Positions 31,935 to 51,166 of a stretch of 64,000 nucleotides of DNA are shown piece after piece. Position 1 is the first letter of the stretch; each line of letters begins with the position of its first letter. The DNA is taken from contig NZ_CP085135.1 in the NCBI RefSeq assembly GCF_020616515.1, positions 3,162,001 to 3,226,000 of the forward strand, in the 5' to 3' direction. The notes beneath the pieces are model-generated. The model was not told the origin of the DNA. It did not search any database and saw only the letters and a program-made list of their open reading frames with translations. The translations under genes were made by a program, and so were the position numbers. The DNA comes from Mesorhizobium sp. PAMC28654. GTDB lineage: Bacteria; Pseudomonadota; Alphaproteobacteria; Rhizobiales; Rhizobiaceae.

Positions 31935-32957
31935 TCAAGGTTCGCCAGCGGTTTTGGTTCCAGCCATGAGAACCCGGAACGGCGGCGTTTTCTGGGGCTT
32001 GGAAGCAAGACCGGCATGGCGAAAGAGTGCCTCGAGCTTGTCGGCGGCGACACCCCGAACGATGGGAATGAGGTTGGATTGACTGGCCAGCGCATAGGCG
32101 GCCGCCGATGCCAGCCCGCGTTCGGCCTTCACATCGAGGAACTTTCGCAAGCGGTATTTGTCGCGGACATGACGTTCGTGCTTTCTCAGCACGGCCTTCG
32201 ATCCCTCCGGCAGGCTGTCGATCTTCAACAACGACAGATCCGCGTCGGCAAGGCGCTTCAGATCTTGCGTCTTGTGCCGGCCGCTCAGCGAATCCGGACG
32301 CACGATGGCGCCATAGCCGCAAGACCGGATGACCTTGAACCGTGCCCCCTGAGCAACCGCGCGCGCATAGAGTTCGTAGTCTTCGCCAAGGCGCAGGCCC
32401 TCATCATAGCGCAGCCCGTGCCGATCAAGGAAGGCGCGGCTGATCACCGGCTTGAGGAAGCCGAGTTCACCCCTCTGCACGCGGCGCCTGGAAATATTGC
32501 CTTCGATGAAGCGCTCGAAATCGAGGAATTCGGGATCGGCCGAAAATCGCGGCGCGACGATTTTCGTGATGTCTCCGGCCACGTCATCCCTGATGAGCAT
32601 GATGTTGTCAGCCGCGAAATCCCAGTCGGCGCGGGCAAACAGTTTTCGAAACCGGCCCTCGAGAAAGAAATCATCGGCGTCGAGGATACCGATGAAGGGC
32701 GACCTGGAGCCGGCGATCGCGGCATTGCGGGCAAAGGAGGGGCCACGGTTGATCTCGAGGCGCATGACGGAGAGCCGCCCGCTGCCATCATCGGCAGCCC
32801 GGGCCACGCTTGCCGTGTCGTCGGTGGAAGCATCGTCAACGACCACGACTTCCGTCACTTCCGGTTCACGCAACGCGGAAGCGATGGCAACCGGGATTGT
32901 CCGCGCCGCGTTTCGTGCCGCGATGATCACGCAGACCTCGGTTCCTGTCATGGACAT
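31935..32957 (-). CDS. exoU: Glycosyltransferase family 2 (ExoU-like)
   Basis: A 340-aa GT2 enzyme with CVIIAARNAARTIPVAIASAL, VVVDDASTDDT, GPSFARNAAIAGS and FIGILDADDFFLEGR, plus the late LGEDYELYARAVAQG catalytic-base region. In Sinorhizobium ExoU adds the sixth sugar, a glucose, and exoU adjoins exoX; here the lasso cluster lies between them. ExoO is a close paralogue, so the name rests mainly on position. Confidence 0.78.
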   Translation of the reverse strand: MSMTGTEVCVIIAARNAARTIPVAIASALREPEVTEVVVVDDASTDDTASVARAADDGSGRLSVMRLEINRGPSFARNAAIAGSRSPFIGILDADDFFLEGRFRKLFARADWDFAADNIMLIRDDVAGDITKIVAPRFSADPEFLDFERFIEGNISRRRVQRGELGFLKPVISRAFLDRHGLRYDEGLRLGEDYELYARAVAQGARFKVIRSCGYGAIVRPDSLSGRHKTQDLKRLADADLSLLKIDSLPEGSKAVLRKHERHVRDKYRLRKFLDVKAERGLASAAAYALASQSNLIPIVRGVAADKLEALFRHAGLASKPQKTPPFRVLMAGTKTAGEP

Positions 32958-33034: not shown

Positions 33035-34164
33035 TCAGCGACCACCCGGCCGTTCAAAAATGCGACGGCTGAGATCGGCTGACGCGGCCCAACCGGCCTC
33101 GGCCATGTAGCGGACCGGCGCGCGGCCGCACAGTTCCCACAACACGGTTCGCCGCTGCGGCCACCGCAACGACGACAACCAGGGAGCGATGACCATGTTG
33201 AGCAGGTCTTCATTACCGATGCGCGACAATATCCGGGTGGCCCGTTCCGACAGCAGCGTCCCAGCCCCGCCAAGAAGCACGTCGGCGGCGCGCAGACCAA
33301 GCAGCAACGTGTCGACCAGCCCCTGCTCCGTTGCGTAATCAAGCACATTCTGCTGCTCCGTCGCGCTCAGCCGGCTGGCGCTGGCGCGGACATCACAGAC
33401 ATAGCCGGCGCAGGGCTCGCGGTTGAAAAGCGCCTTGGCAACGCTGATGCAGGAAAGAAGCAAGGTGTCGGACGCCGAAATGAACGGCACGTTCGTGCCG
33501 ACGATTTCGACAGGCCGCTTGCGCCTCAGAAATCCGTCCGTATCGCGCGGACTGGGCGAACCCGGCTGCTGGAGGCGGTAGTGAAGATCGACGGTGGAGG
33601 ATGCCGAGCCAGTGGAACGGGTCATGTGCTGCTCGCCAAGAAAACGAACCCACCACACGGACCTCGATTTGCCTGCAACCTCGTAGCCAATCGCCCGCAG
33701 CGCATCACGTGCCCAAGAGAACCCCGATGACGAGACCAGGATATCGACATCCCCGGAAGGCTTCATGAAATGATCGCCATAGAGAAGCTGCTGCTGGAAC
33801 GGGCCCTTCAGAAACACAAAATCGATATTGCGGTCACGCAAGGCAGTGTGGATGGCCAGCGAATCCATGATGCAGGACGAGTTCATCGCCATCGTCCTCC
33901 TGCGATAGGTATCCAGCCACTGGGACAGATCCGGAGGTTTTCGCCGGGTGAACGAGACAGTGCCTTGAGGACAAACGTGGCAACCTTGTTCAACCTGGCG
34001 ATGTCCGCGACGTTGGCAACCGACACGCTCGACATGGGGGCTTCGCCTGCGGATGCCCCCGGGCTTACTGCGAAGAACAACCTCAGGCATGCCTGCACAT
34101 AGGCAATCTCGTCGGCGCAGTTGGCGGTGCGCAACCGTTCATACGAACTTTCCTGCAAGGCCAT
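33035..34164 (-). pseudogene. Lasso-associated nucleotidyltransferase, frameshifted
   Basis: A PF14907-type nucleotidyltransferase related to the one at 7537. The first part, from MALQESSYERLRTANCADE at 34164 to about residue 75, is in one frame. The catalytic part (FVFLKGPFQQQLL...KPSGDVDILVSSS) is in another. Adding one A to the four-A run at 33938-33941 rejoins them as SPGEKPPDLSQWLDTY, which aligns well with the intact homologue. The break may be a true mutation or a homopolymer sequencing error. It is divergent from the lasso precursor gene, mirroring the arrangement at the first RiPP locus. Confidence 0.75.
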
Positions 34165-34680
34165 CCTAGGCAAAGTCTCCGCAAAACAATCTGCACGACA
34201 CCTATGCTGCAACTGCGAACACGCAGCATCGCCAAAATCTCTTGCGGCGTCCAGTTTTTCCTTTTGGCGCCCGACCTCTACAATCACAGCGTGCGTGAGT
34301 TCTATCTTCAAAACTTACGACAACCGCGGTTGCAATATTAACCGGCGCTCCATTTCAACCGCTCTCAACAAGATTTTACCAGTTTAGATACACTCTTTAG
34401 CTGTGTCTAAAAAATGGGCGCCTGGACGAATATTTTTATTTCAACAAAATCAAATGCTTAATGAATCAGCACAAGAAGACGCTCATGCACACCGATTCAG
34501 CATGGAGGACGGCCGGCTCCGACCGTCCCTTCACAGAATCAGCAGCCATCGCAACCCATAATTGATTAACGCTTGGTAAATCAGGCTTGACTCATGAATG
34601 TTGCCATGCAGCTATTGCGGTGCAGCAAAATATGCTGACGGCACTCGACAGGCCGTTTCCAGCCCTTATCGGAGACTTAA
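34165..34680. other. Divergent regulatory region between the nucleotidyltransferase and lasso precursor
   Basis: A 516-bp gap that is distinctly AT-rich in its middle (about 34300-34480). It holds the TGC-N3-GCA site at 34616 and the GGAG ribosome site of the precursor at 34671-34674. Two short ATG frames near 34455-34461 lack leader motifs and were not called. Confidence 0.6.
34616..34624 (+). promoter_or_regulatory. TGC-N3-GCA motif upstream of the lasso precursor
   Basis: TTGCGGTGCAGCAAAA, 56 bp before the precursor ATG. Sequence and spacing are the same as at exoL, exoY and exoQ. Confidence 0.55.
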
Positions 34681-34833
34681 ATGGAACAGAATGTTGATAG
34701 GCAAGAGTACGAAACGCCCAGCCTGACGGTTCATGGTTCGATCGAAACCATCACCCAGGGCGGTGGCGGCAATACGGCGATCGACGCATCCTTTCCCGCG
34801 CACACGCCGATCTCCCAGCTGACGTTTTCTTGA
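34681..34833 (+). CDS. Lasso peptide precursor (50 aa)
   Basis: A 50-aa precursor. The leader has Tyr10, Pro13, Leu15, Gly19 and Thr25, matching YxxPxLxxxGxxxxxT with Thr at the penultimate leader position. The predicted 24-residue core begins GGGGNTAID: Gly1 could bond to the Asp9 side chain, giving a nine-residue ring, followed by a 15-residue tail that ends in Thr-Phe-Ser. The ribosome site GGAG is six bases before ATG. B1, B2, cyclase, kinase and exporter genes follow in one direction. The C-terminal Ser matches the site phosphorylated in kinase-containing lasso systems. Bulky plug residues (Phe and His) are present in the tail. Confidence 0.9.
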   Translation: MEQNVDRQEYETPSLTVHGSIETITQGGGGNTAIDASFPAHTPISQLTFS

Positions 34834-34888
34834 ACTTGTACCGGCTTCTAGAGTGACGAAGTTGGGACTCTAGATCCAAAATACACAA

Positions 34889-34915
34889 GGGCCGGGGATC
34901 AAGGATCTCCGGCCC
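34889..34915 (+). terminator. Hairpin between lasso precursor and B1 gene
   Basis: A 12-bp stem (GGGCCGGGGATC with its near-complement, one G-T pair) around a three-base loop. No T-run follows, so it is better seen as a partial terminator or 3' mRNA stabiliser that would raise precursor mRNA over enzyme mRNA, as known for other proteobacterial lasso operons. Confidence 0.65.
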
Positions 34916-34965
34916 CCCTTGATTCCCGGCAATTGCCGAAGCGTATCCGTAACCGAGGTTTTAGG

Positions 34966-35265
34966 ATGAACTGGAACCCATCTGAGCATGACAGCGTGAG
35001 TGCGACCAAGGATGCCGTGGCTTGCGAATTCGGCAACGGCCTGGCGCTGCTCAACGTGAAATCCAACATCTACTACAGCCTGAACGGTGTCGGTGCTTTC
35101 ATCTGGGACCTGATCCAGGACCCGAAGCCGATCCTGGAGATCCACCAGGCGGTGCTTGCGCGCTACAATGTCGATCCCGAGCGCTGCAAGGCCGACGTCG
35201 ACGGGCTGCTGAAGGGCCTGGCGGACAATGGGCTTGCGAGGCTGCATCATGAGGAACTTGTCTAG
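34966..35265 (+). CDS. Lasso B1 protein, PqqD-like leader-binding
   Basis: A 99-aa PqqD-family RiPP recognition element that binds the precursor leader for B2. The block GNGLALLNVKSNIYYSLNGVGAFIWDLIQDP is the classic PqqD core, followed by two helices. The start MNWNPSEHDS was chosen by similarity, after a GAGG-like site. It overlaps the B2 gene by 17 bp. Its leader-binding partner should be the YxxPxL region of the precursor at 34681. Confidence 0.88.
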   Translation: MNWNPSEHDSVSATKDAVACEFGNGLALLNVKSNIYYSLNGVGAFIWDLIQDPKPILEIHQAVLARYNVDPERCKADVDGLLKGLADNGLARLHHEELV

Positions 35266-35665
35266 AGTTCTCTCCCTGAGCGGCTCGGAAATACTTTTTC
35301 TTGGCCGCTGCCTGCTGGTGGTCACGGCTGCCCGGCTGGGGTTGACGCTGTTTTCCTACAATCGCGTTCGCGCCGTGGTGATGCGGCTGGACGCGCGGCA
35401 AGCCGCTGATATCGCCGACCTGCGGCGTGTCGCCTGGGGCGTTGCCGCCGCCGCGCGGCTCGTGCCGCGCGCCAGCTGCCTCACCCAGGCGCTTTCAGGC
35501 CAATACATCCTCGCCCGTCAAGGCAGCGCATCGAATATCCGCATCGGTATCGAGCGGGATACGGGAACGCAGTTGAAAGCGCATGCCTGGCTGATGAGCG
35601 GCAACCACATCGTTCTTGGCGGCACGGTCGACGGCTTCGCCCATCTCGTCGATCACGGTCGGTAG
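35249..35665 (+). CDS. Lasso B2 leader peptidase
   Basis: A 138-aa transglutaminase-like cysteine protease that cuts the leader after the residue next to Thr25. The catalytic Cys is in PRASCLTQALSGQYIL and the His in KAHAWLMSG. The hydrophobic N-terminal segment (ILFLGRCLLVVTAARLGLTLF) is common in this family. Start MRNLSRVL gives a 17-bp overlap with B1; the cyclase gene starts five bases after its stop. Confidence 0.88.
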   Translation: MRNLSRVLSLSGSEILFLGRCLLVVTAARLGLTLFSYNRVRAVVMRLDARQAADIADLRRVAWGVAAAARLVPRASCLTQALSGQYILARQGSASNIRIGIERDTGTQLKAHAWLMSGNHIVLGGTVDGFAHLVDHGR

Positions 35666-35669
35666 CCGA

Positions 35670-37592
35670 ATGAGCGGCGTGGCCGGAATTCTGCTCAGGC
35701 AGGGTGGCGCGCCGGCGGCAGCGGCCGCGGACATCCAGCAGATGCTGGCGCGCATGCGGCATCGGGCCCGCGACGGCAGCTCCTGGTGGATGGATACGCC
35801 CATCGCCCTTGGCCATGCTTGGTTCAACACAACGGATGAATCCGGTCCCGGCCCCCTGACCATGGCCGGCGGCAAGCTTGCCGTAACGGCTGACTGCCGG
35901 CTGGACAACCGGGACGAGTTGCTGGCGCGGCTGGGCATCAGGGACAAGTCGGTCGCCGATGCGGTCCTTTTGATGCGGGCCTACCTGCGCTGGGGCGAGG
36001 ACTGCCCGGTCCATCTGCAAGGCGATTTCGCCTTCGCCATCTGGGACAGCGAACGGCAAGCGCTGTTTTGCGCGCGCGATCAGTTCGGGGTCAAACCGTT
36101 CTACTACCACGCCAGCGTGCAGCGCTTCGTCTTTGCCTCGGAGGCTGGACCGATCCTTGGCATCGACGGGGTCGGTACACGCATCAGCGAGCATCAGGTT
36201 TCCGGGTTCCTGGCAGGACTTCCCGATGACCCGCAATCAACACACTATGCCGATATCTTCCGCTTGCCGGCGCGCCACACTCTGACCGTGACGGCACAGC
36301 AGGTGGTGTTGCGCCGATATTGGCAGATCGAGCCGTCATCGCGGCCGATCCGGTCGGACGCGGCCGAGGAATTCGCCCATCTGTTCTCGCAATCGGTTCG
36401 AAACCGAATGCGGGGCACTTCGGCTGTAGGCGCGATGTTGAGCGGCGGCCTCGATTCCTCGTCGATTTCCTGTGTGGCAGCCATGCAAAACGCCGCTGAA
36501 CACAAGCCAAGGCTCCCCACCTTCTCGCTGATCTTCGAGAAGGGGTCGTCGATGGACGAACGCCCGTTCATCGACGCGGTGCTGCGGCAGCAAAAGGTCG
36601 ACGGGACGTTGATCCCGGTCGGCAATTATCAGCCATTTGCCGAATTCGAACAGGTTCTCGAGGAACAGGAAGGGACCTTCCTGGCGCCGGGCCTCACGCT
36701 TACCCGCAACCTCTACAGGACCGCTGGCGCCAAGGGCATCAAGGTGCTCCTCGACGGACATGGTGGAGACGAAGTCGTCTCGCAGGGCCATGGTCACCTG
36801 CATGAGCTCGCCAATGCCGGCAAATGGATCGACCTGTGGCGCGAGATCCGCAGCGCCTCCAACACCTATGGCGACGGTATGCTCGGCCTGTACTTCCAGT
36901 TCCTGACCATTTACGGGCCGGCCTGGCGCGTCGCCAAGCTCAAACATGCGGCGAACCGTGTTCTGAACCGGATACGCAAGCCAGCGCAGGCATCGCAAGG
37001 CGCAAGCTGGCACGGCCTGATCAATCCGGACCTTGCTGAAAGAACCGACCTTGTCGATCGTTTTCACAGGGCCGGCTACATGCCCCCGACGGTAAGCGCC
37101 AGCGAAGCGTTGACCCATCGCTGGATCCTGTCGAACGGCTACGTACCGCATTCCTTCGAGGTTCTGGACAAGGCGGCGGCCAATTTCGGCGTCGAGGCGC
37201 GCTATCCGTTCTGGGACAAGCCGCTGGTCGAGTTCTGCCTGGCACTGCCGGGCGAGGAGAAACTGAGCCACGGCTTTGGCCGTTACGTGCTGCGCCGTGC
37301 CATGGAAGGCATTCTGCCGACGGCGGTTCAGTGGCGGCGCGACAAGATCGATTTCACCGCCAATCTCGTCAACGGCATGCTCGGTAACCACCGCGACCTC
37401 CTGGAGCGCGTACTGGTTTCGGATGCAATCCGTATCGCACCCTATGTCAACCTGTCGGCGGTAACCGCGGCCTACGCACGGCTCGTGCGCCAGCCGGATC
37501 AGGCAGCGCCGCTCGATGTCCAGTACGTCTGGCGTTCGGTGTCGCTGTCCCTCTGGCTGCGGCAGGTCCAGCTTCGCGGGAGCCACGCATGA
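35670..37592 (+). CDS. Lasso cyclase (asparagine synthetase-like C protein)
   Basis: A 640-aa ATP-dependent macrolactam synthetase that activates the ring Asp by adenylation and joins it to Gly1. It has an N-terminal class II amidotransferase-like domain and a C-terminal synthetase domain with the PP-loop AMLSGGLDSSSISC near residue 260 and LDGHGGDEVVSQGH. The N-terminus is MSGVAG, so the nucleophile Cys2 of true asparagine synthetases is replaced by Ser, as expected for an enzyme that does not use glutamine. It overlaps the kinase gene by four bases. Confidence 0.92.
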   Translation: MSGVAGILLRQGGAPAAAAADIQQMLARMRHRARDGSSWWMDTPIALGHAWFNTTDESGPGPLTMAGGKLAVTADCRLDNRDELLARLGIRDKSVADAVLLMRAYLRWGEDCPVHLQGDFAFAIWDSERQALFCARDQFGVKPFYYHASVQRFVFASEAGPILGIDGVGTRISEHQVSGFLAGLPDDPQSTHYADIFRLPARHTLTVTAQQVVLRRYWQIEPSSRPIRSDAAEEFAHLFSQSVRNRMRGTSAVGAMLSGGLDSSSISCVAAMQNAAEHKPRLPTFSLIFEKGSSMDERPFIDAVLRQQKVDGTLIPVGNYQPFAEFEQVLEEQEGTFLAPGLTLTRNLYRTAGAKGIKVLLDGHGGDEVVSQGHGHLHELANAGKWIDLWREIRSASNTYGDGMLGLYFQFLTIYGPAWRVAKLKHAANRVLNRIRKPAQASQGASWHGLINPDLAERTDLVDRFHRAGYMPPTVSASEALTHRWILSNGYVPHSFEVLDKAAANFGVEARYPFWDKPLVEFCLALPGEEKLSHGFGRYVLRRAMEGILPTAVQWRRDKIDFTANLVNGMLGNHRDLLERVLVSDAIRIAPYVNLSAVTAAYARLVRQPDQAAPLDVQYVWRSVSLSLWLRQVQLRGSHA

Positions 37593-38596
37593 TGTCCAAA
37601 AGCGCGCCGTTCGCCTCGTATCCCGAATTTGCCCGCGAGCGCCCGCAAGGCGGGTCCGTGCGAAAGCGGCGCTTCTACAAGGCCTACGGGCTGACCATCG
37701 CTTCAGATGTGAGCTTGCCGGAGCTTGAACCGACCGCGCCGGCGGCAGTCGATGTGCTCATCCATGTCGGCCCCATCGACCTGCCCAAGCCCTCGCCGGA
37801 GCTTGGTAGCGACTTCCGCTTCGAAGCTGACCGGCAATATCTGGCATGGCAGGCGGTCGGCGCGTTCCTGATAAGCGATGCCTGCCGCATCGACGTGGAG
37901 CCGGCGCCGGGCGTCGACGACGCCTTGATCGCCTTTCCACTGCTGGGACCGGTCATGGCGCTTCTGCTGCATCAGCGCGGCCTGCTCATCCTTCACGCCA
38001 GCGCAATAGCCGTCGGCGGCAAGAGCGTGATCTTCATGGGCGACAAGGGCGCAGGCAAGTCGACGACCGCGGGTGCGATGATCCGGGCCGGCCACGAATT
38101 GCTCACCGACGACGTTGTGGCGCTCGACATGACCCGTTCGGACAAGGCGATGATCGTTCCGGGTTTTCCGCAGTTGAAACTGGCCGCCGATGCCGCCTCC
38201 GCCATCGCCCTCGACGATGTCGAGGTCCGCCCGCAGGTTCATCCGGCGATCGACAAGGCACAGCACCGCCTGCTCGGCGGCTTCTCCCACGACAGGGTTC
38301 CGGCGACCAGGATCTATATCCTCGAACGGGGCGAGCGGGCGGCGATCTCGCCCTTGCCCACCATTGCCGCGTTGCCCGCGATCATCAAATTCTCCTATGT
38401 CACACGTTTCGGCCGGCCCGCTTTGGTCGGCGACGCCGCCGCGCTGCATCTTGGGCATTGCGCAAGATTGGCTGATCAGGTCGGGGTGTGCCTTCTCGAA
38501 GTGCCGACGGGACTCGACAGGATCGGCGAGGCCGTGGACCTCATCGAGAGGGACCTGGCGGCAGAGGGCGCGCGGCGCTCCAACCATTCCCGGTGA
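37589..38596 (+). CDS. Lasso peptide kinase (HprK-like)
   Basis: A 335-aa HprK-related kinase with P-loop IFMGDKGAGKSTTAGAMI near residue 150 and the acidic LLTDDVVALDM segment after it. Known relatives in lasso clusters phosphorylate the C-terminal serine of the precursor; the precursor here ends in Ser. The start ATG overlaps the cyclase stop, and the exporter gene follows after five bases. It is a distant paralogue of the kinase at 8569. Confidence 0.87.
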   Translation: MMSKSAPFASYPEFARERPQGGSVRKRRFYKAYGLTIASDVSLPELEPTAPAAVDVLIHVGPIDLPKPSPELGSDFRFEADRQYLAWQAVGAFLISDACRIDVEPAPGVDDALIAFPLLGPVMALLLHQRGLLILHASAIAVGGKSVIFMGDKGAGKSTTAGAMIRAGHELLTDDVVALDMTRSDKAMIVPGFPQLKLAADAASAIALDDVEVRPQVHPAIDKAQHRLLGGFSHDRVPATRIYILERGERAAISPLPTIAALPAIIKFSYVTRFGRPALVGDAAALHLGHCARLADQVGVCLLEVPTGLDRIGEAVDLIERDLAAEGARRSNHSR

Positions 38597-38601
38597 AGAG
38601 C

Positions 38602-40446
38602 ATGTCCGGATTACCAGCCATTCGCCTGTCGCTGTTTCGAGAGATCGCCGGATTCGGCGCCACCATGGCCCGGATTGGCGGCCGGCGAACCTGGACGACG
38701 TTGATCTTCCTGGTCCTCGGCAGCCTGACCGAAGGCATCTCGATCCTGCTTCTCATCCCGTTGCTGCAACTGGTCGGACGCTCCGACCAGAACTATGCAA
38801 TCAGGCTGCCTGACAATGAATTCTTCCGCTGGCTGTCGCCTGACGGAACGCTGCAACTGACGACGGTGCTGTGCGCGCTTGTCGGGCTGATCACCCTGCA
38901 GGCGGCTTTCAACCGCTTCAAGTCCGTCTACATGGCCAGTCTTCTCTATGACTTCATCAACCGCCTGCGCATCAACCTGTTCGAGAGCATCGGGAAGGCG
39001 CGTTGGGGCATATTCACCCGGCTGCGCGGCTCCGACCTCGACCATGCCCTGACAGGCGACATCGACCGCGTGCAGGCAGCGGCCTTCGCCCTTCTGATGC
39101 TGGTTCAGATCGCCGTGCTTCTGGCCGGATACCTCGTGGTGTCGGTGTTCATCTCGCCGGTGATGACGTTGTTCGCCGTGGTGATCGGCATCCTGATGTT
39201 TGCGGCGCTTCAGCCATTTCGCACCCGGGCCACCGCCTTTGGCCGGGTTCTCACCGCCAATCGCCAGGATCAATACCGTACGGTTTCGGAATTCCTTGGC
39301 GGCATCAAGGTGGCGAAGAGCCTGAATGTCGAGGCCAGCTATTTCGCCCAGTTGCAGTCGATCCTCGAAAGGATGAAGGCCGACAACATCAACTACGTGC
39401 GCAACTCCACGATCGGCACCGCCTTGTTCCAGGTGGCGAGCGTCGTGGGCTTGAGCCTGTTCATCTATGTCGCGCTGGTTCGCTTCAACCTGTCGCTTGC
39501 CGAGATCGTCGTGCTGCTTCTGGTCTTCATGCGCATTGCACCGCGCTTCATGGATCTGCAGACGCAAGCCCAACAGGTCCTGATCAATTTGCCCGCCTAT
39601 ACGTCGATGCGCGGCCTGCAGATGCGTTTCGATGCGGAGCGCGAGCCGGCCAGTTCCAGCATTGACGAGCCTGGCAAGTTGTCGCTCGATACGGGACTGA
39701 ACATACGCAACGTGTTCTTTGGATATGGCGACGGCACCGGCAAGGCGGTTGTCAGTGACATCACCTTTGGCCTTCCCGCCGGAAAGGTCACCGCCCTTAT
39801 CGGCCCTTCCGGGTCGGGCAAGAGCACGATCGCCGACATGCTGCTTGGCCTGCTCGAACCAACGGCCGGCAAGATGCTCGTCGATGGCATCGAAATCACG
39901 GGCGCCAATCGCAGGCGTTGGCGCGATCAGGTGGCCTATGTGCCGCAGGATGTGTTTCTCCTGCATGATACGATTGCTGCAAACCTTCGCCTCGCCGCGC
40001 CCCAGGCGACCGACGACGAGTTGTGGACAGCGCTTCGCTCAGCGCATGCCGGCGACTTTGTCGAGCGGCTGGAACACCGGCTCGCGACAGTGGTTGGCGA
40101 CCGTGGCGTGCGGCTTTCGGGCGGTGAGCGCCAGCGCATTGCACTGGCGCGGGCGTTGCTGCGCAAGCCGTCACTGCTCATCCTGGATGAAGCCACAAGC
40201 GCACTCGATTGGCAGAACCAGTCGTTGATCGCCAAGTCGATCGACGGGCTGCGCGGCTCGATGACGGTCCTGACCATCGCGCATCGGCCATCGATGATCG
40301 CCTTTGCCGACTGGGTGGTGGCGATGGAAAATGGCCGCGTCGTGGAAGTCGGGCAATATCAGAGATTGAAGGAAAAGCCGGAAAGCCGGTTGTCCAGGAT
40401 GCTGTCGGGCGAACAGTCCGACAGGGAACCCGCCGACGCGGCCTGA
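38602..40446 (+). CDS. Lasso peptide ABC exporter (D protein)
   Basis: A 614-aa half-transporter that would export the mature peptide and give self-immunity. About six membrane helices fill the first 330 residues (for example TLIFLVLGSLTEGISILLLIPLLQLV). The ATPase domain has Walker A GPSGSGKSTIADMLLG, signature RLSGGERQRIALARALL, Walker B LLILDEATSALD and the switch His in TIAHRPSM. It is the last gene of the lasso operon, 39 bp before the stop of convergent exoX. Confidence 0.9.
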   Translation: MSGLPAIRLSLFREIAGFGATMARIGGRRTWTTLIFLVLGSLTEGISILLLIPLLQLVGRSDQNYAIRLPDNEFFRWLSPDGTLQLTTVLCALVGLITLQAAFNRFKSVYMASLLYDFINRLRINLFESIGKARWGIFTRLRGSDLDHALTGDIDRVQAAAFALLMLVQIAVLLAGYLVVSVFISPVMTLFAVVIGILMFAALQPFRTRATAFGRVLTANRQDQYRTVSEFLGGIKVAKSLNVEASYFAQLQSILERMKADNINYVRNSTIGTALFQVASVVGLSLFIYVALVRFNLSLAEIVVLLLVFMRIAPRFMDLQTQAQQVLINLPAYTSMRGLQMRFDAEREPASSSIDEPGKLSLDTGLNIRNVFFGYGDGTGKAVVSDITFGLPAGKVTALIGPSGSGKSTIADMLLGLLEPTAGKMLVDGIEITGANRRRWRDQVAYVPQDVFLLHDTIAANLRLAAPQATDDELWTALRSAHAGDFVERLEHRLATVVGDRGVRLSGGERQRIALARALLRKPSLLILDEATSALDWQNQSLIAKSIDGLRGSMTVLTIAHRPSMIAFADWVVAMENGRVVEVGQYQRLKEKPESRLSRMLSGEQSDREPADAA

Positions 40447-40485: not shown

Positions 40486-40758
40486 TTAGTGAAGGCTCCT
40501 GCGGGCGCCGAGCTTCTCGCCCTCGGCGGCCTCGGTCGAATTCAGTTTTCTTTCAGCGTCGCGAATCTTGTCGGCCGGGGTCGGAGCACTTCTGGCAACC
40601 ATGATGTAGACGAGCACAAAGTAGCCGATTTGAATGATGACGGCACAGACGACAACGCGAACAAGCGTCGTGACCACCGAGGCGCCGTCGAGATAAGACC
40701 ACAGGACCACGATCGCGAGCGCGAAGACCATGCCGATGATAAATTTTGGCAGCGACAT
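40486..40758 (-). CDS. exoX: Exopolysaccharide production repressor ExoX
   Basis: A 90-aa small membrane protein with two hydrophobic helices (FIIGMVFALAIVVLWSYL and VVVCAVIIQIGYFVLVYIMVA) and a charged C-terminal tail. Size, topology and its position divergent from exoY match ExoX/PsiA-type post-translational inhibitors of exopolysaccharide synthesis, which are thought to act on ExoY. Start chosen at MSLPKFII with a GAGAGG site before it. Confidence 0.82.
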   Translation of the reverse strand: MSLPKFIIGMVFALAIVVLWSYLDGASVVTTLVRVVVCAVIIQIGYFVLVYIMVARSAPTPADKIRDAERKLNSTEAAEGEKLGARRSLH

Positions 40759-40910
40759 ATCGGACCGCCTCTCAGCCGGCCCGAGCAAAAATCGACGACT
40801 GACCCACCCAAGCCTCCCTTCACCACACGAGCTTATTTGGCTGCCCGCTTTCGGCCGGTTGCTTCCCGCCTTACGACCTACGCATTTTCTAGCAGAAACA
40901 ATTTGCTAGT

Positions 40911-40996: not shown

Positions 40997-41292
40997 CACA
41001 CAGAATCATGGTCGATTCCTTCGCGCTCCATTCCGCCAGTATAATCTCTAATATTGATTAGTATTTTACGCTAATATTCCTATGCTCGCTACCACACTAA
41101 AGCAGTGAACTCCTCATCGAATCGTGATCAAGGGCGAATCGCCCCAATTTTGCCGCAGAAGCACCATCAATTTTGCGGATATGCCTCGCACATGTCATAA
41201 ACGTGCCATAAAAGCCGAATCTTGTGCAGGCAGAGCTTATTATTTAGTCAATCCATGACGTGACTATTTCAACGGTATGGGAAATTGTGTGT

Positions 41293-41301
41293 TGCGCTGC
41301 A
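41293..41301 (+). promoter_or_regulatory. TGC-N3-GCA motif upstream of exoY
   Basis: TTGCGCTGCAGCATTTT, 54 bp before the exoY ATG. Confidence 0.55.
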
Positions 41302-41355
41302 GCATTTTTTTGGTACCGTGCCGTGAACCATTCGTTCAACGCATGGAGTTTCGGC

Positions 41356-42033
41356 ATGAGGGACGTTGCGAAGTCAGCCACAGCGGGCTTTCCGCAAGCT
41401 GACATTGATTTTCCGCCGCCGATCGGCGGCCTGCTCAAGCGCAGCTTTGATATTGCCGGTTCGCTGGCTGGATTGATTGCACTCAGCCCGCTGTTTGTGA
41501 TGATCGCGCTGCTTGTCAAATTTTCCGACGGCGGATCCATTTTCTATGGTCATCGGCGGATAGGCCGGGGCGGGCGGATTTTCCCTTGCCTCAAGTTCCG
41601 CACCATGGTGCCGGACGGCGAAAAGGTTCTGGCGGCGTATCTTGCCGCCAATCCGGATGCCAATGCCGAATGGCTGTCGACCCGCAAGCTGAAGAACGAC
41701 CCACGTGTCACGCGTGTCGGGGCCATACTGCGCAAGCTTTCCCTCGATGAACTGCCGCAGATCATAAACATCCTTCAGGGCGACATGAGCCTTGTGGGAC
41801 CTCGTCCGGTCGTGCGCGACGAGTTGGAGATCTATGGCAGCGCCGCGGTCTACTACCTGAAATCGCGCCCCGGCCTGACCGGGCTCTGGCAGGTCAGCGG
41901 GCGCAATGACGTCTCCTATGACAGCCGGGTGGCATTCGATCGTCACTATGTCGAGAATTGGTCGATGTTCGAGGACATTCGCATCATCATCAGGACCGTG
42001 CCCGCCGTCTGGATGTCGCGCGGCTCCTACTAA
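41356..42033 (+). CDS. exoY: Undecaprenyl-phosphate galactosephosphotransferase, initiating enzyme
   Basis: A 225-aa polyprenyl-phosphate hexose-1-phosphate transferase that starts each repeat by placing galactose-1-phosphate on undecaprenyl phosphate. One membrane helix (FDIAGSLAGLIALSPLFVMIALLV) is followed by GHRRIGRGGRIFPCLKFRTM, LRKLSLDELPQIINILQGDMSLVGPRPV and RPGLTGLWQVSGR, all family hallmarks. The start MRDVAKSATAG was chosen by family length and because the regulatory motif lies just upstream of it; the frame is open further. It is followed by exoF as in Sinorhizobium. Confidence 0.95.
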   Translation: MRDVAKSATAGFPQADIDFPPPIGGLLKRSFDIAGSLAGLIALSPLFVMIALLVKFSDGGSIFYGHRRIGRGGRIFPCLKFRTMVPDGEKVLAAYLAANPDANAEWLSTRKLKNDPRVTRVGAILRKLSLDELPQIINILQGDMSLVGPRPVVRDELEIYGSAAVYYLKSRPGLTGLWQVSGRNDVSYDSRVAFDRHYVENWSMFEDIRIIIRTVPAVWMSRGSY

Positions 42034-46288: not shown

Positions 46289-46774
46289 TTAAAGCGGCTT
46301 GCCCAGCCATTCGCGATAAAAGCCTTCGAGATCCGGCTCGAAATCATGCACCAGGGGATAGCCGGGTGCCGCCGCCTCCACTTCGTGCATCGTGCCGCAC
46401 TGCGGGCAGATGAATTCGCGGATTTCCATCCACCGCGGATCAGGAATGTCACTGTTGGGATAAATCTCGCGCAAAGCCTCCTCGGTGTTGCGCACATTGA
46501 TCGCGGCCTTGAGCTTCCAGTTCTTGCGATAGTCGCCGAAGGAATGGCCGCACTCGCAGCGGGTTATCCGCTCATCGCCGCTCTGGCAGATGAACAGATG
46601 ATCCGAGACCGGCAACAGGATCGGGTCCTTCCAGGCGACGCGGTCCTGATAGACGGCGACCATCTTGAAGAAACGGTCGTCGTCTTTGTAGGCGCTCATG
46701 ATGCGCCTTGTCTGCGGCCAGGGCAGCTGGCCTGCAGCCAGATCGCGGAGGACTTCCTTGCTGTACGAGGTCAT
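46289..46774 (-). CDS. acxC: Acetone carboxylase gamma subunit
   Basis: A 161-aa small subunit. It has two Cys pairs likely to bind metal (CECGHSFGDYRKNWKLKAAINVRNTEEAL and FICPQCGTMHEVEAAAPGYP), with YPNSDIPDPRWMEIREFICPQC as a family hallmark. It overlaps the acxB stop by four bases. With AcxA and AcxB it carboxylates acetone to acetoacetate using ATP. Confidence 0.9.
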   Translation of the reverse strand: MTSYSKEVLRDLAAGQLPWPQTRRIMSAYKDDDRFFKMVAVYQDRVAWKDPILLPVSDHLFICQSGDERITRCECGHSFGDYRKNWKLKAAINVRNTEEALREIYPNSDIPDPRWMEIREFICPQCGTMHEVEAAAPGYPLVHDFEPDLEGFYREWLGKPL

Positions 46775-48975
46775 GGCTTTGCTCCCGGCATGAAGATCGA
46801 TCTGGCATCGACGTTCCAGAAATCACTGAAGTCCTTGGTGAAGCGCGAGGAAAGCTTGATCGCGCTGGCGTACATTTTCTTCACCTCCGGCGCGAAGTCG
46901 GCCTTTTCGACGCGGCCGCGCTCGGTGGCGATCCAGTCCGCTACCGGTATTGCCTTGGCCAGCCGCTCCTTGCGCATGGCGGCGCGGCGTTTGACCGTCG
47001 CGTCGATATCGGCAAGGGGATAGCCGTCTTCATCATCCTTCAGCACAATGCCGAAAACCTGGTCGGCCGCCTGGCGGGTGAGAAAACCATTCTCGACATC
47101 CCAGGCCGTCTTGATCGGATCGCGCTCCAGCACATCGCCATAGCCGCCGCCGCCATTGTAGGAATGGCTGAAGATGTCGCCGGACTTGTGCGGCGCGGTG
47201 ATGTAGGGGCCTTCGACCACGACATGGTCGCCGCCGATGTTCTTTTCATAGTCCGAGACATGCGGGTCGATGCCGGGCGCATGCGCCAGCGGTTCGCCCC
47301 TGGCAGCCAGTTCGTGGATATTGGAATCGCGCACGGCGCGGTGCTTCTGGCAGGTCGGCGCCGGATAGCCGCCGCACATGCCGCCATTGTCGAACACGCG
47401 CGAGGAGTGCTCCGACGTGTGGAGCCGCAGATGCGAGGTCTTGTTGATCAGCCAGGTCGAGACGAAGGAACAGCCGCCGCGATATTTGCCGGCGCCACCC
47501 GAATTGGGCACGATCGAACGGCCGATATAGACCATCGGCATCGACTGTTCCCAGACCTCGATGTTGCCCATGTCGGATTCCGGATTCCAGCCGACATAGG
47601 CGGTGTCGAGCCCATCCGCGATGGCAAGCGCGCCGGAGCCGGCGGCGGCGCATTCGAAATGCGCCATGCCGAACGGCGTGCCGTACTGGCTTTCGCCACC
47701 CATCTCGATCATCGGGCTGTTGACCTGGCCGACGAAGGCTTCCTCAACGAAACCCCGCGCCACGAAGCCGCGCGACAGCAGCCGCTGGAACACGCCATAG
47801 GCCGGCAAGAGCAAAGCCCATGAGGTGGCGGTCGCCACCATCTCGTTGTCGGGGTTGGTCCAGGTGCCGTGCGGCAATTTCAGCTCGGTCGCCATCCAGG
47901 CGCCGTCATTGACCAGGCCTTCGAAGTTCATGTGCTGGGTCAAGGTGACGAACATGCCGCCATCCATGCCGGCCGGCGTGCAGTTCATCGAATGGTAGCC
48001 CCAGGGCTGCGTGCCCTCGAAGTCCATGGTAATCTTGCCGTCGGTGGTGATCTCCATCTCGATCGGGATGTTGTAGAGCCAGTCCGGATCGCCGAGCAGC
48101 TGGAAGCCGGGCTTGCCGGCGGTGACGTGACCATAGAAGGTGTGGCCACGATAGATGCCGGGAACGGTGAGCTGGCGGGTGCGGGCGAGCTGGGCGCGGC
48201 GGCCCTCCTCGATGAATTCCTTCGACACCTTCATCCAGTAATCGAGGCCGATCTCCGAGATCAGCTGCTTGACGCTTTCACGCATGTCGATGCAGGAGGC
48301 GACCTTGGCCTTCTCATCGAGCACCCAGTAGATCGGCATGCGCAGATTGCGCTCGCAGCGGATGACGTAGTCGCGACGGATCTCGTCGTTCTCACCGATC
48401 TTCTCGGCGCAGACGAACAGGCCTTCTGTGAAGCGCTCCTGGGCGAGGCAGACGTCGCCACCCGGCGTGATGCCGCCGGCTTCCAGTTCGTGGCAGACCG
48501 CGCCGGCCCAGCCGACCAGCGTGCCTTCATGGAAGATCGGCACCACATCCATGACATCGGGCACCTGCACGGTGCCGATGAAGGCATCATTGTTGGCGAA
48601 GATATCGCCTTCACGGATGCGCGGGTTTTCCTCGTAGTTGTTCTTGATCATCCATTTGATGAAACGGCTCATCGTATGGACATGCACCATGATGCCGTTG
48701 GAGAGCGCGATGGCGTCGCCCTCGGGGGTGTAGATGGCGACCACCATTTCGCCGACCTCGCGCACGCCGGGCGAGGCAGAGATGCGGCGCGCCATCTCGC
48801 GTGCCGAGACGCAATAGGCACGCAGCTTGGTGTGCAGCGTCTCGAATTTCAGCGGATCCTGGTTGCGCAGAGAGAGCTCGGTGATGCCGTCATAGCAGCC
48901 GGTCTCTTCCATCAGCCGCTCGGAATCGAGCAGTCTTTCGCGAAGGCGCAGGGCCGAAGCAGGTTTGTCCAACAT
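46771..48975 (-). CDS. acxB: Acetone carboxylase alpha subunit (HyuB family)
   Basis: A 734-aa protein of the hydantoinase B/oxoprolinase family. It shows YTPEGDAIALSNGIMVHVHTM, REGDIFANNDAFIGTVQVPDV, the metal-site-rich VCHELEAGG and NYNGGGGYGD-type glycine loop. The start MLDKPASALRL follows an AGAGGG site. The gene lies 13 bp after acxA. The alpha subunit carries the carboxylation site of the enzyme and a bound Mn in characterised homologues. Confidence 0.92.
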   Translation of the reverse strand: MLDKPASALRLRERLLDSERLMEETGCYDGITELSLRNQDPLKFETLHTKLRAYCVSAREMARRISASPGVREVGEMVVAIYTPEGDAIALSNGIMVHVHTMSRFIKWMIKNNYEENPRIREGDIFANNDAFIGTVQVPDVMDVVPIFHEGTLVGWAGAVCHELEAGGITPGGDVCLAQERFTEGLFVCAEKIGENDEIRRDYVIRCERNLRMPIYWVLDEKAKVASCIDMRESVKQLISEIGLDYWMKVSKEFIEEGRRAQLARTRQLTVPGIYRGHTFYGHVTAGKPGFQLLGDPDWLYNIPIEMEITTDGKITMDFEGTQPWGYHSMNCTPAGMDGGMFVTLTQHMNFEGLVNDGAWMATELKLPHGTWTNPDNEMVATATSWALLLPAYGVFQRLLSRGFVARGFVEEAFVGQVNSPMIEMGGESQYGTPFGMAHFECAAAGSGALAIADGLDTAYVGWNPESDMGNIEVWEQSMPMVYIGRSIVPNSGGAGKYRGGCSFVSTWLINKTSHLRLHTSEHSSRVFDNGGMCGGYPAPTCQKHRAVRDSNIHELAARGEPLAHAPGIDPHVSDYEKNIGGDHVVVEGPYITAPHKSGDIFSHSYNGGGGYGDVLERDPIKTAWDVENGFLTRQAADQVFGIVLKDDEDGYPLADIDATVKRRAAMRKERLAKAIPVADWIATERGRVEKADFAPEVKKMYASAIKLSSRFTKDFSDFWNVDARSIFMPGAKP

Positions 48976-48988
48976 GGCGGTCGCCCTC

Positions 48989-51166
48989 TCAAGCGTGGGT
49001 GTAGTGCAGCAATGTCCATTCATCGACATGGACGCGGTCCTGTGGATGAATGACGAGCGTGGTGGCGGGGTGTTCGATGATGGCCGGGCCGATCACTTCG
49101 TGGCCGGGCTGCAAGAGATCCATCTCGTAGAGATTGGCCTTGTGCCAGCGCCCGCCGATATAGGCCTCGCGTACGCCCTTGTGGGCGGCTGCCGGATTGG
49201 AAGCGCCGAGCGGCCGCTTGAGCAGCACCGGCTTGACCTTGTCGGCGGTGGCGATCAGGCCGAGTTCGGTGATGGTGAAGCCGGCCTCGCCATAGCGCGA
49301 CACGCGGTGGTTGACCTTGGCGTAGACCGCCTCGAACTCGTCGATAACCTTGCGCATGTCATCGGCCGAATTGACCTCGGCCATTGGCGCCATGACTTCG
49401 ACGTCCTCGAGCTGGCCGGTGTAGCGCATCATCAGGAACGGCACGGTCTTGATCTTGTCGCGGGCATGACCGTCGACGATCATCTCGTCGACCGCTGCCT
49501 TTGTGAGATCGTTCCAGACATTGGTGACCTTCGTCCCAAAAGCCAGCAGTTCGTCATCGCTTGCCCGCGCGCCAATGTCATGCTGCGTCGATACCGAGTG
49601 GCGGCGCATGAAATCGGCGGTGGTGCAGCCGAAGGCGGAGAAGGCGGCGGCGAACTGGAAGGTGATGATGTCCTTGAAGCCGATGCCCCTGGAACAGCCG
49701 GCGAGATGCAGCGGACCCGAGCCGCCATAGGAGAGCAGCGTGAATTCGGAGGGATGAATGCCCTGGCCGGAGATGACGCGGCGCAATGCGTTGTTGGCGT
49801 CGGCCTCCAGCATTTCGATCATGCCTTCGGCGGCTTCCTCCAGTCCGACGCCCAATATGTCGGAGCATTTTTCCTGGAAGGCGCGGCGGGCCTCTTCGAC
49901 CTGCAGCACGACCTTGCCGCCCAGGAAATAATGCGGGTTGAGGCGGCCGAGGATGGCGTCGCAATCGGCGATGGTCGGCTCGGTGCCGCCGCGATCGAAA
50001 CAGATCGGGCCGGGATCGGAGCCGGCACTTTCCGGCCCGAGCGAGACCTTCTTGGTCAGTGGATCGACCTTGAGGATCATGCCGGCGCCGGCGCCGATCG
50101 TGTCGAGATGCAGGGTCGGCACGTTGAGCTTGAAACGGTCCATCAGCGGCTCGTTCTCGATCCGCGTCTGGCCGCGAGAGATGACGCCCATGTCGAAGGA
50201 GGTGCCGCCCATGTCCGAGCAGATCAGCGAGTCATTGCCGATCAGCTTGCCGACATAGGCAGCACCCAGGATGCCGCCGATCGGGCCGGAGATCATGGTT
50301 TCGTGCAGGCGCGGATGGTTGATCGAAGTCAGGCCGCCGAAGGAGAGCAGCGTCTGCACGCCATATTTGAAGCCGTATTTCTTCGAGACGTCCTCGATGC
50401 CCTTGAGCTGCTTGCGGCCGCGCGAGGTGGCATAGGCCTCGATCAGCACCGAGTTCAGCCGCGACTGTTCGCGGATGACCGGGCGGACCTCATGGCTGGT
50501 GTAGACGATGATATCGGCGCCGGCCTTCTCGACCTCCTCGCGGCATATCTCGGCGATGCGCTTCTCGTGCACCGGATTGACGTGCGAGAAGATGGTCATG
50601 ATGCAGATCGCCTCGACCTTGTCGGCGATAAGCTTCCTGGCTGCAATCGCGACCTCATGCTCGTAGAGCGGGAGCACGATGTCGCCGAACTGGTCGATGC
50701 GCTCGGTGACGCCGTGCGTGCGGCGGCGCGGCACCAGCGGGTCGGGATGATGATGGGTCACGGCATGAAGCCGGTCGGCATAGGAATAGTCGGCCCAGGC
50801 CTGCAGGCCGCGGCCCATCAGGATCATGTCCTCAAGGCCCTTGGTGGTGATCAGGCCGAGCCGGCGACCGGTGCGCGACAACAGCGTATTGAGCATGCCG
50901 GTGCCGGAATAGAGCACGACGTTGACGCCGGAAAACAGCTGCTCCAGCGAGATGCCCCAGGCGTCCGCCGCATCTTCGGCCGAGGCAAGAAAGCCCTCGG
51001 CCTCGTTCTTCGGCGTCGTCGCCGACTTGCCGATCTTGAAGTGGCCGTCCTGATCGACAAGGATCGTGTCGGTCATGGTGCCGCCGGCGTCGATACCAAT
51101 GACAATTGGGCTGCCAATGATTGGTGGGTTGCCAACGATGGGGGCGGTGAGGTTGGGTTGGGTCAC
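48989..51166 (-). CDS. acxA: Acetone carboxylase beta subunit (HyuA family)
   Basis: A 725-aa ATP-using subunit of the hydantoinase A/oxoprolinase family. The phosphate-binding motif IGIDAGGTMTDTILVDQDG is near residue 25, and SDMGGTSFDMGVISRG is the second actin-like ATPase loop. A run of Pro/Ile/Gly repeats precedes the first motif, and an early Met at the start of the IDAGGT block cannot be ruled out. In homologues this subunit phosphorylates acetone and bicarbonate. It heads the acxA-acxB-acxC-SDR operon, divergent from a LuxR-type regulator. Confidence 0.93.
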   Translation of the reverse strand: MTQPNLTAPIVGNPPIIGSPIVIGIDAGGTMTDTILVDQDGHFKIGKSATTPKNEAEGFLASAEDAADAWGISLEQLFSGVNVVLYSGTGMLNTLLSRTGRRLGLITTKGLEDMILMGRGLQAWADYSYADRLHAVTHHHPDPLVPRRRTHGVTERIDQFGDIVLPLYEHEVAIAARKLIADKVEAICIMTIFSHVNPVHEKRIAEICREEVEKAGADIIVYTSHEVRPVIREQSRLNSVLIEAYATSRGRKQLKGIEDVSKKYGFKYGVQTLLSFGGLTSINHPRLHETMISGPIGGILGAAYVGKLIGNDSLICSDMGGTSFDMGVISRGQTRIENEPLMDRFKLNVPTLHLDTIGAGAGMILKVDPLTKKVSLGPESAGSDPGPICFDRGGTEPTIADCDAILGRLNPHYFLGGKVVLQVEEARRAFQEKCSDILGVGLEEAAEGMIEMLEADANNALRRVISGQGIHPSEFTLLSYGGSGPLHLAGCSRGIGFKDIITFQFAAAFSAFGCTTADFMRRHSVSTQHDIGARASDDELLAFGTKVTNVWNDLTKAAVDEMIVDGHARDKIKTVPFLMMRYTGQLEDVEVMAPMAEVNSADDMRKVIDEFEAVYAKVNHRVSRYGEAGFTITELGLIATADKVKPVLLKRPLGASNPAAAHKGVREAYIGGRWHKANLYEMDLLQPGHEVIGPAIIEHPATTLVIHPQDRVHVDEWTLLHYTHA

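Follow-up and report, generated by a model that had tools for sequence, protein, structure and literature searches.

A lasso peptide operon in the exo locus of Mesorhizobium and its proposed link to the exopolysaccharide

The lasso peptide operon analyzed here lies in a stretch of 64,000 nucleotides of Mesorhizobium sp. PAMC28654 (contig NZ_CP085135.1, positions 3,162,001 to 3,226,000; hereafter, the window), whose source genome is a single 6.70-Mb contig. A profile search of the proteins placed an exopolysaccharide (EPS) locus, the exo locus, at about 13141 to 45011 in the window. On its ExoU side this locus holds Wzz/ExoP-like, nucleotidyl transferase, family 2 (GT2) and family 8 (GT8) glycosyltransferase, pyruvyl transferase, Wzx, acyltransferase, UDP-glucose dehydrogenase, GH16 and ExoU-type GT2 genes, and beyond the operon those for ExoX, ExoY, an export protein and Wzy; the succinoglycan-type gene set (Wzz/ExoP, Wzx, Wzy, ExoY, export protein, pyruvyl transferase, GH16 and GT2) is complete in the window. 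ExoU, ExoX and similar names stand for family matches combined with synteny. The lasso operon, A-B1-B2-C-K-D, is located between exoU and exoX, and a further gene, N, is divergent from it.

All the parts of the cluster that an earlier note on this DNA had named were recovered in place by family matches. On the reverse strand, the exoU-type GT2 gene (31935-32957, PF00535) is the downstream neighbor of N (33035-34164, PF14907, nucleotidyltransferase (NT)-fold nucleotidyltransferase-like), the frame of which is broken near 33937. The forward strand carries the leader (34681-34758) and core (34759-34830) of the precursor A, followed by a GC-rich hairpin at 34889-34916 that was predicted from single-sequence folds of 10 loci. 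Next are B1, a PqqD-like leader-binding protein (34966-35265, PF05402); B2, the leader peptidase (35249-35665, NF033537); C, the lasso macrolactam cyclase (35670-37592, NF033535, 786.8 bits for a cut-off of 525); K, an HprK-like kinase (37592-38596) that matches Hpr_kinase_C at 32.6 bits, just below the 33.3 cut-off; and D, an ABC exporter (38602-40446, PF00664 and PF00005) whose nearest NCBIfam models, HepA and MsbA, are both under cut-off. The right border is exoX (40486-40788, reverse strand), a weak SyrA/ExoX-like match (24.6 bits versus 25; NF052519, 53.9 versus 140) whose name is supported by synteny. The first gene past this border encodes an exoY-type sugar transferase (41260-42033, forward strand, PF02397).

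The precursor has 50 residues and consists of the leader MEQNVDRQEYETPSLTVHGSIETITQ (26 amino acids) and the core GGGGNTAIDASFPAHTPISQLTFS (24 amino acids). It scores above the cut-offs of the NCBIfam lasso models NF033528 and NF033521, and its homologues are already named 'lasso peptide [Mesorhizobium]' in their source. As a rule, lasso cores start with Gly and have Asp or Glu at positions 7-9. Here, the leader shows a YxxPxL motif (YETPSL) and Thr at -2, and the core starts with Gly and has Asp at position 9, so that the prediction of a nine-residue Gly1-Asp9 ring and a 15-residue tail (residues 10-24, ending in Ser24) was a correct reading. The lasso assignment was likewise borne out by the family matches of precursor, B1, B2 and cyclase, the last an Asn-synthetase-like protein. 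The earlier note had made its reading depend on the conservation of Asp9 among homologues; this residue is invariant in 103/103 Mesorhizobium cores and in the 9/9 cores sampled outside the genus. Gly1, Phe12, Pro13, Thr16, Pro17, Thr22, Phe23 and Ser24 are also invariant in the 103 cores, the commonest of which is GGGGSTAIDASFPAHTPIGDLTFS. The nine outside cores, one of them from the cyanobacterium Nostoc MG11 (L224), share Phe12, Thr16, Thr22 and Ser24 as well, with Gly1 in eight. The leader Tyr was present in the 101 precursors found, by a search pattern that required it, and one of the 102 loci gave none.

Among 101 Mesorhizobium sequences there are 87 core variants at the DNA level and 32 at the protein level. 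The dN/dS ratios (pairwise Nei-Gojobori) were 0.20 for the core, 0.32 for the ring, 0.15 for the tail and 0.028 for the leader, compared with 0.10-0.28 for the flanking exo genes and 0.16-0.27 for the other lasso genes, the last two ranges being from a random subset of 28-30 sequences per gene. By these ratios, the core is under purifying selection.

The candidate catalytic residues of B2 and K are also conserved. B2 has Cys77 and His112 in 113/113 sequences and Asp135, the presumed third residue, in 110/113. His135, Lys156, Asp173 and Asp174 of K, which we ourselves assign as its catalytic set, are each present in 113/113. An HprK-like kinase with the His-Lys-Asp-Asp set, together with a C-terminal Ser in all 103 and nine cores, places the cluster with the kinase-type lasso systems. 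Sequence comparison with solved structures returned no match for N (E up to 1) or B2 (E up to 0.1). Kinases of this type phosphorylate the C-terminal Ser once or several times ahead of maturation, with PadeK as an example, and PsmK and PsmN phosphorylate and hexosylate such a Ser, PsmN leading to one or two hexoses; the review that describes them leaves open whether PsmN or a host glycosyltransferase adds the hexose (PMC9266682). Unlike PadeK, BsfK is described as targeting a Ser in the ring (PMC10368454). Since Ser24 is conserved and the ring has no conserved Ser, C-terminal phosphorylation is favored. The invariance of Ser24 thus agrees with the kinase target that had been proposed, and the predicted phosphate mass shift is +79.966 Da. 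Calculated monoisotopic masses for the core of the window are 2327.118 for the lasso, 2407.085 with HPO3, 2569.137 with HPO3 and one hexose, and 2731.190 with HPO3 and two hexoses; the corresponding values for the commonest core of the genus are 2257.065, 2337.031, 2499.084 and 2661.137.

N requires separate treatment. A divergent nucleotidyltransferase had been described at 33035-34090; a PF14907 gene is indeed there, but this frame does not give the native protein, since the N-terminal third lies out of frame with respect to the orthologues examined (22 orthologues and 38 Mesorhizobium loci, partly the same genomes). The conserved N-terminus is encoded in a different frame, which reaches as far as an ATG at 34164. 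The nearest orthologue (G046, 90%) differs by two one-base length differences, one near 33937 and the other near the start, and intact frames are present in other loci. Judged by these alignments, N of the window is a pseudogene or the result of a sequencing or assembly error. If the frameshift is real, the product of this strain would be at most a phosphorylated, unglycosylated peptide. A pLDDT of 85 was obtained for the model of the orthologue from Mesorhizobium sp. YC-39, whose NT fold is nearest to MenT1, ANT(2'')-Ia and LnuA, and Asp48, Asp50 and Asp102 (window numbering from 33904) are invariant in 110/110 sequences. As modeled, N is NT-fold nucleotidyltransferase-like, a fold that alone does not establish the reaction.

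The gene N is closely associated with exoU. It lies upstream of exoU on the same strand in 107 loci; the two are separated by 64 bp at the median and by 77 bp in the window. The genes overlap by 8 bp in L158 and by 4 bp in L161, and are not adjacent in L179. In both genomes of family f40 (L177 and L178), one of which is Pararhizobium sp. IMCC21322, N and the ExoU-type glycosyltransferase form one 750-codon open frame, which carries PF14907 and PF00535 in a domain scan of the copy from the metagenome-assembled genome (MAG). A protein search, which scored only the 7990 candidates sharing most words, found both domains in 5/47 matches, one of them (P0039) at 39% identity; the fusion is therefore not an error of a single assembly. 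The model of the fused protein has two mostly confident domains, and its low-confidence linker (367-407) and pTM of 0.51 make it silent on domain contact. N is missing in 25/25 loci that lack the lasso genes and retain exoU (one exoU is apparently interrupted). Because N is lost with the lasso genes yet fused to ExoU, we infer that it is a member of the lasso module with the EPS glycosyltransferase as its partner, and the fusion suggests a dedicated pair. Another fusion was seen in the MAG with the N-ExoU frame, where a small open reading frame beside exoU is fused in frame with GH16 (exoK-like; L185:4893-6233, the same as L178:14425-15765).

The cyclase was searched in 146 genomes of the genus. 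A match of 74% identity or more that spans most of the protein was present in 101, the window's own included, and in the exoU-exoX slot wherever the contig allowed a check. Broken copies were found in G051 and G078. Their clusters (L130 and L157) appear to be decaying, with a split or rearranged cyclase and, in G051, a precursor that has no ATG start. In 25 of the other 43 genomes, exoU (at least 81% identity) adjoins exoX directly, with no lasso genes between them besides exporter remnants; the 3′-end of the exporter persists in the gap in three of these 25 (L136, L143 and L154). The remaining 18 comprise nine with only a distant exoU (57-62%), of which the four that were fetched all had exoU-exoX without lasso genes; eight without exoU; and G123, in which a short contig ends after exoU and N. 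Two-piece matches that look interrupted were seen for exoU in G098 (L148) and exoY in G127 (L151), both without the module.

The order exoU-N-A-B1-B2-C-K-D-exoX-exoY-exoF was found in 99/102 loci. The exceptions are a 4.9-kb locus (G082), which is also the only one of the 102 without an exoU match and in a longer fetch showed A to exoF with its N side at the contig end; one locus lying at the end of its contig; and one in which no exoK match was seen. Single genes are damaged or partial in L037 (exporter) and L053 (B2 match). On a FastTree tree of exoU, exoY and exoF from 136 loci, presence of the lasso genes changed seven times, compared with a mean of 27.5 after shuffling (0/500 as low); one of the seven is G078, scored as absent despite its broken copy, hence six or seven changes. 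The distances among lasso genes followed those among exo genes (r 0.916, 0/999 permutations as high; 98/102 genus loci, four dropped). Lasso-bearing G136 (L045) is nested in a lasso-less clade, so regain by recombination at the exo locus is possible. As judged from these comparisons, the operon is vertically inherited; the cluster has long occupied its slot, and where other genomes of the genus lack it, loss appears to be the cause. A recent insertion is rejected, given the conserved slot and order across the genus, the exporter remnants and the few changes on the tree, and the word 'inserted', used before for this cluster, is misleading.

The region upstream of the precursor (34520-34680) is largely near-invariant in 101 aligned loci. 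It includes a promoter-like region (34562-34615, forward strand) with a dyad, TTGATTAACG..TGGTAAATCAG, at 34562-34584 and CTTGAC at 34586-34591; CTTGAC and parts of GCTATTGC reappear in L158 and L160. No second copy of the dyad was found in the window with up to three mismatches allowed, so there is no evidence of regulation shared with other exo promoters. A simple sigma-70 and terminator scan of 34100-35100 gave no more matches than shuffled sequences and did not recover the conserved region. Past the exo locus, at 46289-49029, lie genes for acetone carboxylase gamma and a hydantoinase-B-like protein.

Cyclase scans, in which only the best candidates per genome were scored and the higher ranks were sampled, showed that the module extends beyond the genus. 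There were hits in 10/394 genomes of the family at E ≤1e-90 (six of this genus, so four from other genera), in 13/397 of the order at 1e-60 (seven of this genus) and in 2/385 of the class, one of them the window's own. Eight alphaproteobacterial loci outside the genus combine N with a cyclase of 36% identity or more and have flanks that can be read; all eight lie in EPS loci. The full exoU-to-exoF order is kept in L158 (without an exoK match) and in L177 and L178; L160 keeps the exoX side and L161 the side with exoU and exoK. Of the three other flank proteins scanned in L161, one is a DHDPS and none matched a polysaccharide family. L179 is rearranged, amid Wzx, Wzz, export and pyruvyl-transferase-like genes, and in Pseudaestuariivita rosea (L222) and Caulobacter sp. 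S45 (L230) the module is surrounded by Wzy, Wzz and GT2 genes. A ninth divergent locus (L159/L221) is on a 4.5-kb contig whose flanks are not readable. A single branch (support 84, long branches) sets apart the 12 alphaproteobacterial cyclases classed as EPS-type, L221 included.

Outside the Alphaproteobacteria, 38 loci were compared, 31 of them of at least 12 kb. Wzz/Wzx/ExoY-like matches occur in 14/31, many of whose hosts are related Nostocales; most of them are to ExoP's kinase half and lie some 3-7 kb upstream of the cyclase. This ExoP-like neighbor in cyanobacterial sequences hints at an EPS link in another phylum. A motif search recovered a similar core in three of the 38 loci (L224, L226 and L228), the remainder giving different cores, chance frames or none. 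None of the seven scanned cluster and flanking proteins of the Nostoc MG11 locus belongs to a polysaccharide family. Spread by plasmids was considered and rejected, the single match being to a Halopiger plasmid at 34% (E limit 1e-80). Two further observations concern these distant loci. The 24-residue cores at L224:12175 (Nostoc) and L228:12068 (an acidobacterial MAG) share D9, F12, P13, T16, T22 and the final S with the rhizobial ones. An ExoP-like (Wzz/BY-kinase-like) gene lies upstream in L235, L233 and about 11 other cyanobacterial loci, with Wzz confirmed by Pfam in L235 and L233.

The explanation that we favor, with modest confidence, is that a vertically inherited lasso operon forms a built-in component of the exo locus that can nevertheless be lost, and that its (glyco)phospho-lasso shares in EPS physiology and is not engaged in an arms race. 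The conserved sequence and position suggest a peptide that works with the polysaccharide and not a fast-evolving weapon. We infer the product, the chemistry of its modification, the order of the steps, the sugar and the function as follows. B1 would present the YxxPxL leader, K would phosphorylate the invariant C-terminal Ser24, B2 would cleave after Thr-Gln, C would close the Gly1-Asp9 lactam around the tail and D would export the product. N, with the neighboring ExoU-type glycosyltransferase, would probably put a sugar on the phosphate, and the exported (glyco)phospho-lasso may act in the matrix, its regulation or its export. The link to the EPS that the earlier note had raised is thus supported by the conserved synteny and the N-ExoU fusion.

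Several points weigh against this explanation. The exo genes are kept without the module in 25/146 genomes of the genus and can therefore do without it. The window's own N carries a frameshift, and the fusion may be incidental, its five matches perhaps representing two lineages. No precursor was recognized at the Caulobacter locus, and no exo-type genes were detected by tblastn near the weaker alphaproteobacterial cyclase matches of G755 (contig of only 5.9 kb), G820, G651 and G922, which are 27-34% identical and in which N was not found. Finally, co-inheritance with the neighboring genes would equally result from passive linkage, that is, from an old insertion in a stable locus that was inherited along with it but is functionally unrelated to the polysaccharide. 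Vertical inheritance would account for the same synteny, and exoU and exoX stay in place after loss. We nonetheless regard passive linkage as unlikely, because lineages at 36-54% cyclase identity still have the module in EPS loci, this siting extends beyond the exoU/exoX slot (P. rosea and Caulobacter S45), and N is fused to a glycosyltransferase.

Another explanation, that the cluster makes a competition factor, an exported antibacterial lasso peptide active in the rhizosphere and merely sited in the exo locus, is in line with the antibacterial activity of many lasso peptides and with the exporter gene in the operon. Popov et al., moreover, interpret the patchy occurrence of the relatives in Bacilli as a pattern characteristic of conflict genes (PMC13381572). 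Such a role had been suggested in the earlier note; it is possible and, in our estimate, doubtful, being disfavored by the purifying selection on the core with its invariant tail residues, by vertical inheritance with few gains and losses versus at least 102 events for the Bacilli paeninodins (PMC13381572), and by the EPS location retained across orders. Quite improbable, in turn, is a version in which the lasso is joined through a Ser24 phosphodiester to an exo sugar, N and ExoU build the glycan, and the HepA/MsbA-like pump exports a lasso-capped or lasso-primed oligo- or polysaccharide; we know of no example of such a peptide-polysaccharide conjugate. A symbiosis signal in the nodule, which could be imagined since Mesorhizobium is rhizobial and EPS matters in symbiosis, is very improbable and the suggestion of a nodule role finds no support, as NodC over cut-off occurs in 76/101 lasso-bearing versus 24/25 lasso-less genomes (Fisher p 0.025 with phylogeny ignored, in the direction opposite to a nodule link) and is absent from this genome and 24 other lasso-bearing ones (25/101).

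The literature search, in which subscription journals were mostly outside coverage, listed no title on this Mesorhizobium cluster among its matches. Popov et al. 2026 describe the biological role of the kinase-type lasso peptides found in Bacilli as unknown (PMC13381572). In the lineage described here, such a peptide is conserved, vertically inherited and tied to a well-studied locus of tractable bacteria, which makes its role testable. The N-ExoU fusion also bears on the question, left open in PMC9266682, of whether the nucleotidyltransferase or a glycosyltransferase glycosylates the phosphopeptide.

Among known systems, the pseudomycoidin cluster (psm) of Bacillus pseudomycoides resembles the one described here in its lasso core genes, kinase and annotated nucleotidyltransferase, and in its product the C-terminal Ser bears a phosphate together with one or two hexoses (PMC9266682). 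It belongs to another phylum, and in the conserved EPS locus described here N adjoins an EPS glycosyltransferase gene or, in some relatives, is fused to it; the likeness of PsmN to N is one of annotation. The paeninodin and SyanK systems share the His-Lys-Asp-Asp set of the kinase and the C-terminal Ser target (PMC9266682). The leader-binding proteins of paeninodins favor Trp (PMC13381572), unlike the YxxP (YETP) leader found here. Cyanobacterial kinase-type clusters, such as that of Fischerella thermalis (L235), have B1, B2, C, K and often N, some near Wzz-type genes; they differ in an exporter that is only partly alignable, in mostly other or unrecognized cores and in cyclases that form a separate group. 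The closest parallel in location comes from Popov et al. 2026, who describe paeninodin and LPP clusters embedded in capsule loci of Bacilli, with a kinase, an NTP transferase and an MsbA-like exporter beside polysaccharide genes, and call a biofilm role a 'tempting' idea (PMC13381572). The paeninodins of these Bacillota are very patchy, with at least 102 gain or loss events (PMC13381572), while the Mesorhizobium module is inherited vertically, with a conserved core and only six or seven changes of lasso presence across 136 exo loci. Besides its vertical inheritance and conserved core, its alphaproteobacterial exo locus and the N-ExoU fusion set the present case apart from those clusters.

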